From NCBI GenBank assembly GCA_019751875.1, contig JAIEMV010000010.1, positions 53,638 to 117,637 on the forward strand: 64,000 bases of DNA, in the 5' to 3' direction. How positions within the stretch are numbered: position 1 is the stretch's first letter; each line of letters opens with the position of its first letter. Source of the DNA: Hyphomicrobium sp. GTDB lineage: Bacteria > Pseudomonadota > Alphaproteobacteria > Rhizobiales > Hyphomicrobiaceae. Positions 26,828-37,101 of this stretch are shown piece by piece. Made by a program: the position numbers and the translations under genes. The notes below the pieces were generated by a model. The model did not search any database. It had not been told where the DNA came from and saw only the letters and a list, made by a program, of their open reading frames with translations.

Positions 26828-27097
26828 TCAGTCGTCGAGCGTCTTGAACACAACCGACATGTCTTTGCCGCTGAGATAGAGGTCGTAGACCTTACCGTCA
26901 CTATGGGTGGCGTCGTCGACTTCCCACCGATTGTCGTCGAACTCGATCTCCTTCCAGGCGGTAAAGCCTTCCGCCTTCAGAACCTCTTCGATCTTGGTAC
27001 GCTCTTCGGCGGTGGGGGGCCGATCGTCATCGGCCAGCGCCGGCGAAGCCATGAGGGTGCTGAGGCCGAGTGCGAGCGCGGCAAGCTTCCAGTTCAT
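26828..27097 (-). CDS. PepSY-domain-like small secreted protein
   Basis: Signal peptide; 'EERTKIEEVLKAEGFTAWKEIEFDDNRWEVDDATHSDGKVYDLYL'. Confidence 0.75.
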   Translation of the reverse strand: MNWKLAALALGLSTLMASPALADDDRPPTAEERTKIEEVLKAEGFTAWKEIEFDDNRWEVDDATHSDGKVYDLYLSGKDMSVVFKTLDD

Positions 27098-27250: not shown

Positions 27251-29515
27251 TCACCCCAGCCCCATGCTCGCGCGGTGGACGTAGATCGCCATGCCTAAGG
27301 CGAGGAGCGGTACGAGGACGACGTGGGTAATCGTCAGTCCCATCAGCGCCTTTGGACGTTCCTCGAAATAAGGGTTTATGCGGAGAACCGAAATCGCGAT
27401 CATGACCGTGACCGCCAAATAGGCGAACAGAAAGATGCGGTCGGAGAGCGTGGTGCCGTCGCTGTCGATGGCGGGCAACGCGAGATAGAGCGCCACGGCG
27501 GACAAGAGCGCCGTCACCTGGATCGTTACGATCGCTTCGAAGTGGGTGAGGGGAATGAAGATCGAAAGGTAGGCGACGGCCATGATGAACAAGAGCGGCA
27601 CCACAACGCGCAGGAAGTAATCGGTGGTCTCGCGCGACATGATCCACACGAATGATCCCTTATAGAAGGGTACGATGCTCGGCTGGTGGGTCTTGGCGTC
27701 GATCGTCGTCACGAAATCTTCGTCGTAGCCGACATACTGCTCCTTCGGCTCCCATCCAACCGCATCGACGGCGGAATCGCGCAGATCGATCGGCGGTGGC
27801 TGGACGATGAAGGGTTTGTCGCCGCGCTTGGGGCGGATGTTGATCGCGAACCGCTGCGTATCGAAGGGATAGGTTTGAAGCTCGGGTTGGAAGAGAAAGC
27901 GCCCGGACACATGATAGATTTTCATGCCGTCCGGGTAGGCGTCGCTCTTTTCGCCATTGGCAAGGGTGCGCACGGTGATCTGGCGATCGTTGGTTTGCGG
28001 GTTGATCACCGCGTTCGAGAACTCCACGAGATCAATCGAGTTCTCGAGCCCGTCGTCGCGCATGGAGACGTAAAACTCGGCATGGAACGTCTTCTCATTG
28101 TCATCGACCGAGAAGATGCGGATGAGGTCGATATCGAGGTATTGCGTGCCGATCGCCCGCAGGTTCTCGTTCTTGAGGCGGGCGAATTGCATCGGACCGA
28201 GCTGCGTGCGACCCATACCGGGCGCTAATTGCACGAGGAACGGCGTGCGGGTTGCCGTTCGCGTGCGGGGGTCAAAGGACCAGTTTTCGAACTGCCCCTG
28301 GAACACGCCGCGGCCTGCGGCATAGGTGGTCTTCAAGTGTTCTATGATGTGAGATCGTAGCTTTTTGATATCCGCATCGCGGTCTGCCGTTCGGGAAGCA
28401 GACGCGATGATCCCGAGCATGTCGGCATACTGCGTGCCGACGCCGATGGCGCGCAAGTTGTCGTCGGAGAGCGGGTCGTCTGCTGCGCTTGCGGGGCGCT
28501 CTTTGCATTCGCCATTCGCCCAGCCGGGTGCGGATGAGATTTTGTCGCCGATGAAGACCCAATCTTCGGGGGGCTGGCCGGCCATACGGCGCATCAAGCG
28601 TGCGTTGTATAAGTCGGGGAGGCGATCCCAGACGAGTTCAAAAAGAGCGGATGGATAATCGCTTGCGATATCCTTCGGCACGGAGTTGATGCGCCCGGTT
28701 AGCATGATCGCCGGCGTAACGCCCGCTTCTTTCAAGGCCTTTACGAATTCGCCGTTGCGATCGGCGCCTATGGCAAGGAACACGATGTCGGGGTTTTTCT
28801 CTTTCAGATCTGCGATGACGGCGGGGAACCCGGCGGAGTCGGCTTTATTGTCCTTAGTGGCGATGCGATGATCAGCAACGATGTAGGCGCCCATGACGCG
28901 GTTGAGGCCGTCGGCGAGGCTCGTCGAATACAGCTGGTCGCGCATACCAACGAAGGCGGGACGCTGGAATCCGGAGCGTCGAACGAACTGCGCCAGCACA
29001 GGGAGTCGCTCATCATCCTGGGAGGCGCGCATCGTGAAGACATTTGGATAGTCCTTGAAGATGCTGCTCACGGAGATGGCGGACAGGAATGGGATGTTCT
29101 TCTGCTTGATCTCTTTCCCGGCCGCTTCGAACACGGCTTTGGAGCGATCCGAGCTCGACATGCCGATCATCGCAACGCTGTCGGGATCGGATAGAGCTTC
29201 GCGCATATTGGCGGTCGTGCGATTCTGGTCGCGATAGTCGTCGAGGATGCGCAGATCGAGTTTATGACCGGCGATGCCACCCTGGGCATTGATGCGGCGC
29301 TGCTCTTCGGTGACAAAACGCGTTATAGCGGCGACATCGCCACGGTCATAGCACGTGTCGTTGCGGGTCGAGACAAAGACGTTGACCGTGACAGGTGGCT
29401 TGGTCGCGGCCTCGGCTGCTTCGATGGCCGATGCGGGCTCGTCGCTTAATGCGACACAAAACACTAACGCGCAAACAAACCACACGCTTCTTCGCCATAA
29501 GCTCTGAACCGCCAT
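27251..29515 (-). CDS. Fusion of a periplasmic branched-chain amino-acid-binding-type (type I PBP) domain to a pentameric ligand-gated ion channel domain
   Basis: Signal peptide; PBP-like 'INAQGGIAGHKLDLRILDDYRDQNRTTANMREAL...VAMIGMSSSDRSKAVFEAAGKEIKQKNIPFLSAI'; Cys-loop-equivalent 'FLFQPELQTYPFDTQRFAINI'; four C-terminal TM helices starting 'DYFLRVVVPLLFIMAVAYLSIFIPLTHFEAIVTIQVTALLSAVALYLALP'. Confidence 0.88.
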   Translation of the reverse strand: MAVQSLWRRSVWFVCALVFCVALSDEPASAIEAAEAATKPPVTVNVFVSTRNDTCYDRGDVAAITRFVTEEQRRINAQGGIAGHKLDLRILDDYRDQNRTTANMREALSDPDSVAMIGMSSSDRSKAVFEAAGKEIKQKNIPFLSAISVSSIFKDYPNVFTMRASQDDERLPVLAQFVRRSGFQRPAFVGMRDQLYSTSLADGLNRVMGAYIVADHRIATKDNKADSAGFPAVIADLKEKNPDIVFLAIGADRNGEFVKALKEAGVTPAIMLTGRINSVPKDIASDYPSALFELVWDRLPDLYNARLMRRMAGQPPEDWVFIGDKISSAPGWANGECKERPASAADDPLSDDNLRAIGVGTQYADMLGIIASASRTADRDADIKKLRSHIIEHLKTTYAAGRGVFQGQFENWSFDPRTRTATRTPFLVQLAPGMGRTQLGPMQFARLKNENLRAIGTQYLDIDLIRIFSVDDNEKTFHAEFYVSMRDDGLENSIDLVEFSNAVINPQTNDRQITVRTLANGEKSDAYPDGMKIYHVSGRFLFQPELQTYPFDTQRFAINIRPKRGDKPFIVQPPPIDLRDSAVDAVGWEPKEQYVGYDEDFVTTIDAKTHQPSIVPFYKGSFVWIMSRETTDYFLRVVVPLLFIMAVAYLSIFIPLTHFEAIVTIQVTALLSAVALYLALPAIDSDGTTLSDRIFLFAYLAVTVMIAISVLRINPYFEERPKALMGLTITHVVLVPLLALGMAIYVHRASMGLG

Positions 29516-29624
29516 TCCGACCCCGTCTCCCGCCTGGTTCCGATGGAAGCAGATAGCAGAGGGACTCCCTAGAGTCGTGGCGAACTGATGTCGCTTTTGC
29601 GGCGCGTGCCGAGCTATGCCGCAC

Positions 29625-29652
29625 AAAAAAGCCGCTCCCGTATGGGAGCGGC
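29625..29652 (-). terminator. Rho-independent terminator of the cold-shock gene
   Basis: Minus strand GCCGCTCCCATACGGGAGCGGCTTTTTTGTG. Confidence 0.9.
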
Positions 29653-29686
29653 TTCCTTTCAATTGCAGACTTCAGGAGAGGCGGTT

Positions 29687-34427: not shown

Positions 34428-34437
34428 GAAATCGCAA

Positions 34438-34688
34438 GTGGCGCAGGGCGACTCCGCTGTTGCGGAGCCGGCCGCCCTGCTGGACTGGAGTGGCGCAGGA
34501 CGACTCCGCTGTTGCGGAGCCGGCCGCCCTGCTGGACTGGAATGGCGCAGGACGACTCCGCTGTTGCCGAGCCGGCCGCCCTGCTGGACTGGAGTGGCGC
34601 AGGGCGACTCCGCTGTTGCGGAGCCGGCCGCCCTGCTGGACTGGAGTGGCGCAGGGCGACTCCGCTGTCGCGGAGCCGGCCGCCCTGC
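34438..34688. repeat. Tandem array of a 52-bp palindrome-containing unit, about 4.8 copies
   Basis: Unit gtggcgcagggcgactccgctgttgcggagccggccgccctgctggactgga starts at 34438, 34490, 34542, 34594 and 34646, exact 52-bp period, near-identical copies. Confidence 0.95.
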
Positions 34689-35319: not shown

Positions 35320-35928
35320 TCAGGATTGCGCATGACGTGCGTGAATAATGTTTCCAGCTTTCACGAGGTCCGCAGGATTATCCACGTCGAGAAGTTCGTT
35401 CGCATCACTGATGCGAACGGCGATCGCCTCGGCCCCAATGAGAGACTTCGCACCGCGGTCACCTTTGAGAGCAGCAAGCTGAGGCATGTACGCGCACGGC
35501 CAAACCACGGGATTGCGCTGTGCACCGTCACGATCAGCCGCGTAGACGATGGAATGCCCAGCGTGGGCGGCGAAAGTCTGCAAAAGGATTTGCAGCGTTT
35601 GCGGCGTCAGCAGCGGCATATCGCCGGGAATGATCGCAACGCCATCGATGATGGGGGCGAGCACGGCAACGCCAGCCGCGATAGAGGTGCCCATGCCCTC
35701 TTCAGCATCAGCGCAGCCGACGATCTGCACGCGAAACCGCTGCAAGATGTTCTTGACCGCGGCATGATCCTGACCGGTGACGACGAGGGTTTGCTCAAAG
35801 CCCGCGGCAGTGACGGCGGCGAGCGTGTGGGCGAGGACGGGCGCACCTTCGAGATCGGCGAGCAGCTTGTTGCCGGGACCGAAGCGGCGCGAGCGGCCGG
35901 CAGCGAGAACGAGGGCTGCAATATGCAT
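35320..35928 (-). CDS. mocA: Molybdenum cofactor cytidylyltransferase-like (MocA/MobA family) nucleotidyltransferase
   Basis: 'IAALVLAAGRSRRFGPGNKLLADLEGAPVLAHTLAAV', 'GMGTSIAAGVAVLAP', 'IIPGDMPLLTPQTLQILL'. Confidence 0.88.
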   Translation of the reverse strand: MHIAALVLAAGRSRRFGPGNKLLADLEGAPVLAHTLAAVTAAGFEQTLVVTGQDHAAVKNILQRFRVQIVGCADAEEGMGTSIAAGVAVLAPIIDGVAIIPGDMPLLTPQTLQILLQTFAAHAGHSIVYAADRDGAQRNPVVWPCAYMPQLAALKGDRGAKSLIGAEAIAVRISDANELLDVDNPADLVKAGNIIHARHAQS

Positions 35929-36980
35929 CAGCAGCAGGCGCCGCTGGTGCCATCTAAGTCGTCGGCGGCGGTGAACGGAATGGATGTTCCGCAGCCGGGG
36001 AAGATGCCGTAGTGCGTATCGAAGTTGCCGATGAACGTGAAGTGATCCGCGAAGCGGGTTTCCCCCAGCATCCGCCAGGTGTTGCCGCAGACAGGAAAAA
36101 CGCGGCCCTTTTCAATATGGTGATGGCCGTCGAGTACGAACGTATCCGGCTCTTCGGAGAGCGTGCCCTTGTAGATCACGGCTTGACCGTAGTCCTCGCA
36201 GGCGTGCTCCAGACCATCGAGCTTGAACAGGCGGTAGGTTGCGGAGAAGAATCTCGCGGCCCCAAGCTTCTTTTGAAGGGCGGCGTTGTTCACGTCCATC
36301 GGGCGGCTGGTGACGAGGCGGGGATCAAGGAAGCCCGCGCGCCTTGCAAGCGAAAGGAAGTCGTTCCAGTAGAGCGCGCCGCTCAGACATTCGCCGTAGA
36401 GTTCGGGATCGCGCACGAGGTGTTCGGGGATGCGGCGGTCGGCATAGACATCGGAGAAGTAAAGTTCGCCGCCAGGTTTCAAGAGGTCGAACGCGCCTTT
36501 CAAGACGGCGGGCTTATCGATCGAAAGATTGATGACGCAGTTCGAGACAATGACGTCAAACGACCCTGGCTCGAGCCCCAGTTCGTCCAAGCGTTCGATG
36601 TAGCCGTGGAGGAAGCGCGTGTTCGGCTTGGCGTAGCCGAATTTCTGGGCGTGCCATTCGACGTGGCGGCGGACGACGGCGAGTTGTTCGTCGGTCATGT
36701 CGACGCCGACGACCTCGCCATTCTCGCCCACGAGTTGGGCCAGCATATAAGCGTCGCGTCCCGATCCGGCACCGAGATCAAGGACGCGGCGACCTGTCAT
36801 TTCCGAGGGGCACACGAGGCCGCAGCCGTAATACTTGGAAGAGACTTCGTCATGTATCCTGGCTGCGAGGGGCCTGAGATGCGCCGGCATGGCGTCGGCG
36901 GTGCAGCAGGCGGACGTCTTCAGATCGTCGGAAGACTTGAGGACCTTGCCGTAGTAGAGCTTGACGCTGTCGTGATCCAT
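35928..36980 (-). CDS. arsM: Arsenite S-adenosylmethyltransferase-like protein (ArsM family)
   Basis: 'YYGKVLKSSDDLKTSACCTADAMPAHL...SKYYGCGLVCPSEMTGRRVLDLGAGSGRDAYMLAQLVGENGEVVGVDMTDEQL...NCVINLSIDKPAVLKGAFDLLKPGGELYFSDVYADRR'. Confidence 0.85.
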   Translation of the reverse strand: MDHDSVKLYYGKVLKSSDDLKTSACCTADAMPAHLRPLAARIHDEVSSKYYGCGLVCPSEMTGRRVLDLGAGSGRDAYMLAQLVGENGEVVGVDMTDEQLAVVRRHVEWHAQKFGYAKPNTRFLHGYIERLDELGLEPGSFDVIVSNCVINLSIDKPAVLKGAFDLLKPGGELYFSDVYADRRIPEHLVRDPELYGECLSGALYWNDFLSLARRAGFLDPRLVTSRPMDVNNAALQKKLGAARFFSATYRLFKLDGLEHACEDYGQAVIYKGTLSEEPDTFVLDGHHHIEKGRVFPVCGNTWRMLGETRFADHFTFIGNFDTHYGIFPGCGTSIPFTAADDLDGTSGACC

Positions 36981-37101
36981 CGGTGTCTCCGTATTTTCCG
37001 ATCGCAACCCGATACGTTATCCGTGGCTGCCGCGTTTCACGTTCGAGTTGAGAAGATGTGTCTATTGGTGGACCGGGATCGGGGAGGGCGCAAGATCGGA
37101 G

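Follow-up and report, generated by a model that had tools for sequence, protein, structure and literature searches.

A single gene on the minus strand of the window, by which we mean the whole 64,000-nucleotide stretch of Hyphomicrobium DNA analysed, encodes a 754-aa protein in which a type I periplasmic binding protein (PBP-I) clamshell is fused to a pentameric ligand-gated ion channel (pLGIC). We judge it somewhat probable that the protein is a homopentameric cation channel whose clamshell binds a small solute and gates or modulates the pore. No biological role was known in 2016 for any unicellular pLGIC (PMC4795631). In a conserved family whose solute sensor can be recognised, the ligand should be identifiable, and this would give a direct way to learn the purpose of bacterial pLGICs; whether a PBP clamshell is able to gate such a channel could be tested on it as well.

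Gene and neighbourhood

The gene (27251..29515, minus strand) runs from an ATG at 29515 to a stop codon at 27251-27253. The earlier note had given the interval 27251-29515 with no strand; it is exactly one 754-aa gene including its stop, and the strand is minus. Residues 1-30 (29426..29515, minus) are a predicted signal peptide region, with a hydrophobic N-terminus that is modelled as a low-pLDDT helix at residues 2-22. The source assembly is 3.7 Mb in size and rated 100% complete.

A terminator-like hairpin with a T run, recognised by reading the sequence, lies 3′ of the upstream cold-shock gene (29622..29654, minus; the hairpin is also listed on the plus strand). No operon partner kept across genera was found, synteny with the cold-shock gene and lepA being limited to the genus level. 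Because the terminator-like hairpin separates it from the cold-shock gene and no neighbour is kept across genera, the fusion gene is probably transcribed alone. No transporter gene is conserved near it. Directly downstream on the same strand is a gene for a small exported protein of about 89 aa (26828-27094, minus), PepSY-like by eye, for which no conserved counterpart was seen beyond the genus.

Two further features of the window were recorded. Between groES and a phasin-like gene (gene names assigned by eye), at 34437-34688, a 52-bp unit is repeated 4.8 times with 96% match; several of its frames are open. At 35928-37007 (minus) is a gene that, by eye only, resembles an arsenite methyltransferase (ArsM-like).

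The clamshell

Residues ~38-445 (28181..29404, minus) make up the clamshell, which the earlier note had already placed in the LivJ class of type I PBP domains. The assignment is borne out by a profile search, in which Peripla_BP_6 matches residues 74-272 (E 5e-22), and by the predicted fold. The AlphaFold model has a mean pLDDT of 83 and a pTM of 0.80, and its clamshell (~40-440) matches LivJ-class and related structures with Z 20-22, rmsd mostly 3.5-4.8 Å and 13-19% identity. Peripla_BP_6 was found in all 23 aligned relatives. The nearest solved chains by sequence include the urea-binding protein 8tg1 and Leu/Ile/Val-type proteins.

The ligand pocket was compared with that of E. coli LivJ by alignment. 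The LivJ ligand residue Ser79 aligns with Ser122, which is kept in 20 of 23 relatives, and LivJ Thr102 falls one column off Ser148, kept in 21 of 23. In LivJ, Glu226 holds the amino group of the ligand; it aligns with the invariant Gly274, beside Arg275, at a place where the alignment is uncertain. Judged from these columns, the pocket is conserved only in part, and it is not certain that a plain alpha-amino acid would be held just as LivJ holds it. Since the LivJ ligand-contact columns match only partly, we put no name to the ligand.

The last clamshell segment and the linker to the channel (residues 399-451; 28163..28321, minus) are conserved and contain seven invariant residues: G401, G407, W412, F414, R419, L439 and Q443.

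Outside the signal peptide the protein has only two cysteines, both in the clamshell: Cys55 (29351..29353, minus) and Cys337 (28505..28507, minus), the latter in an APGWxxGxC segment. Cys55 is kept in 25 of 27 family members, and the two that lack it also lack the partner. The partner stands at column 337 in 23 of the 27 and four columns away in two more. Such joint presence and joint loss suggest that this family-specific pair forms a disulfide.

The channel half

The pLGIC extracellular domain covers residues 452-628 (27632..28162, minus), as placed by predicted models and a structure match. It is followed by four predicted transmembrane (TM) helices, as had been claimed: M1 at residues 631-653 (27557..27625), with an invariant P640, the M2 pore helix at 656-679 (27479..27550), M3 at 690-713 (27377..27448) and M4 at 721-750 (27266..27355), all on the minus strand. 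All four helices are taken from the AlphaFold model, and position numbers in M2 from an ungapped alignment to GLIC. By sequence, residues 462-736 match GLIC (E ~1e-4), and the best match to a profile of the channel is DeCLIC (E 2.5e-8). The earlier note had let its reading stand or fall with the predicted fold of this C-terminal part, and that fold is a pLGIC: the folded channel half (model pLDDT 85) matches GLIC, GluCl, glycine and GABA-A receptors with Z 21-22 over ~275 residues. Pfam Neur_chan_LBD gave no match to the channel half or elsewhere in its genome, but it was silent in the control genomes too, so this negative carries no information.

The signature FLFQPELQTYPFDTQRFAINI, reported earlier, is present. 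Its Pro-loop core (defined as in PMC4795631) is Y549-P550-F551-D552 (27860..27871, minus); in the alignment of 27 members Pro-Phe-Asp is invariant (27/27) and position 549 is Y or F. The extracellular domain contains no Cys at all, so the flanking pair of animal Cys-loop receptors is missing, again in line with the first reading. Two extracellular-domain aromatics, W588 and W624, are invariant among the 27 members.

In M2 the numbering gives E660 at -2′, T664 at 2′, T668 at 6′, L671 at 9′, A675 at 13′ and L678 at 16′. Pore positions 4′-9′ and 13′-15′ are invariant in 27/27 members, with Glu at -2′ in 25 and Thr at 2′ in 19. This is a cation-channel pattern. In GLIC, E35 and H235 are linked to proton gating. 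They align with K475 and A673 of the fusion protein, and these replacements make GLIC-type proton gating unlikely.

The host genome also encodes a second pLGIC; this one is 374 aa long, lacks a clamshell and contains the motif NYPFDKQ (L051:1372-2496, minus, around G000:C1:23941-24531). Four relatives of the same genus likewise have a weak second match of this simple kind.

Distribution and evolution

The fusion is carried by 24 of 60 related genomes, counting the host, two of them with two copies. Four of the closest named records, all of them Hyphomicrobium assemblies, encode full-length proteins 81-82% identical to ours; a fifth has a best segment 85% identical and a broken frame. In one of the 24 carriers (G005, L005:5914-8168) the fusion gene is present as two overlapping frames, with the break, either an error or genuine, between residues 395 and 398, at the clamshell end.

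In a class-wide search with a whole-protein profile only two candidates were scored in each genome, most of them ordinary solute-binding proteins, and the search was redone with the channel half. Across the order, a search with the channel half found the channel type in 11 of 199 genomes. Ten of the 11 matches sit in frames of 769-884 aa (the other in one of 572 aa), which makes the clamshell a regular part of these proteins. Among 385 genomes spread over the class, the channel-half profile found none besides the host. The plasmid search returned stand-alone solute-binding proteins only.

The earlier note had allowed for a sequencing artefact that joined two genes. A chimera of two neighbouring genes, made by an error of sequencing or assembly, is a general possibility with nothing particular to recommend it, and we give it practically no credence: the same fusion is seen in many independent assemblies, including the full-length Hyphomicrobium proteins. 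A joining artefact is thus refuted by recurrence in related genomes and across the order.

Both halves are under purifying selection, with dN/dS ~0.1. Against four relatives the clamshell gives 0.10-0.12, the extracellular domain 0.04-0.06 and the TM part 0.08-0.10; these figures are rough, with dS near saturation. Conservation is highest in M1 and M2, and the clamshell is looser and faster-evolving than the channel. Trees of the clamshell and of the channel agree on the main well-supported groups, which fits a single old fusion. Like the selection on both halves, this agreement also speaks against a joining artefact.

Possible mode of action

The receptor channel would sit in the inner membrane, its N-terminal half sent to the periplasm by the signal peptide. 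Judging from the pLGIC fold, five subunits would form a ring, with five clamshells above or beside it. Each clamshell would bind a small solute, probably one of the kinds taken by LivJ-class proteins: an amino acid, an amide or a small organic acid. Closure could then act through the conserved last clamshell segment on the first strand of the extracellular domain, altering the opening of a cation-selective pore, and the effect of the cation influx would be on membrane potential or ion balance, not on a Che pathway.

Clamshell gating, proposed earlier, is plausible. The specific form of it in which PBP-I closure on the solute itself opens the cation pore, the last clamshell segment being the coupling part, we put forward tentatively, as something that may well prove otherwise; if true, a sensor of the transport type has been coupled to a channel of the neurotransmitter-receptor type. 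The clamshell might instead be a modulatory or assembly domain, like the N-terminal domain of DeCLIC or the amino-terminal domain of ionotropic glutamate receptors, with the opener (another ligand, protons or removal of Ca2+) acting at the pLGIC extracellular domain. That domain is more conserved than the clamshell and holds the invariant W588 and W624, and there is the precedent of DeCLIC, whose N-terminal domain tunes kinetics and has not been shown to be an agonist site (PMC12664993, PMC9897478). Since the DeCLIC domain appears to tune its channel, we take this alternative as a serious one, although on balance unlikely; K475 and A673 tell against protons acting as they do on GLIC. The protein might also be a receptor that conducts no ions and has put the pLGIC scaffold to another use, a thought encouraged by the want of any known role for unicellular pLGICs as of 2016. 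The strong conservation of the pore-lining residues speaks against it, and we regard it as very improbable.

A role in chemotaxis, with ligand-triggered ion flow steering motility, was proposed for such fusions by Tasneem et al. (PMC549065), and the earlier note had called the protein chemoreceptor-like. FliG in the host points to a probable flagellum, but neither CheW nor methyl-accepting chemotaxis proteins (MCPs) were found in its genome, which is rated 100% complete. Among 28 carrier genomes CheW occurs in eight, MCPs in nine and FliG in 11; for the 23 carriers of good quality the counts are six (CheW), seven (MCP signalling domain) and eight (FliG). Control searches gave hits in E. coli, B. 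subtilis and Caulobacter. Because most carriers lack CheW and MCPs, a Che-coupled role cannot be the general role of the family, and the word chemoreceptor is weakened in its chemotaxis sense. We hold the chemotaxis reading to be very improbable; in flagellated carriers ion flow may have an effect on motility. The solute-binding, gated or modulated cation channel is the explanation that we prefer.

Comparison with known systems

A literature search of open-licence papers yielded no experiments on any PBP-type pLGIC, and no solved structure was found that matches both halves by sequence. The architecture itself has been known since 2004, from the PBP-I-pLGIC fusions that Tasneem et al. (PMC549065) reported for Magnetospirillum magnetotacticum and Bradyrhizobium japonicum. 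Compared by published description, those proteins share with ours the domain order (PBP-I, pLGIC extracellular domain, four TM helices), and all are from Alphaproteobacteria. The Hyphomicrobium gene is therefore a new example, not a new kind; the earlier note rightly said that additional N-terminal domains occur on known pLGICs, yet it missed this publication.

With GLIC the protein shares the fold (Z ~21, ~19% identity), the Pro-loop, Glu at -2′ and the lack of a Cys-loop pair; GLIC differs in having no clamshell, and the residues linked to its proton gating are replaced in the fusion protein. DeCLIC resembles the fusion protein in being a bacterial pLGIC whose N-terminal domain is large and periplasmic. 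That domain, which a 2025 paper calls the only one in any pLGIC to be partly characterised (PMC12664993), consists of two jelly-roll lobes, whereas ours is a PBP-I clamshell. LivJ/UrtA-class proteins share the clamshell fold, Peripla_BP_6 and the column of ligand residue Ser79; unlike them, the fusion protein has a channel and an extra Cys pair, and a counterpart of Glu226 was not found by alignment. Ionotropic glutamate receptors also carry clamshells on an ion channel, but their channel is an unrelated tetramer. The likeness to clamshell-gated animal receptors drawn in the earlier note is thus fair, but no more than an analogy, since the channel here is a pLGIC. To these known systems the present analysis adds a family centred on Hyphomicrobiaceae, with an invariant pore, a clamshell Cys pair and little overlap with chemotaxis genes, as well as the second, simple pLGIC of the host.
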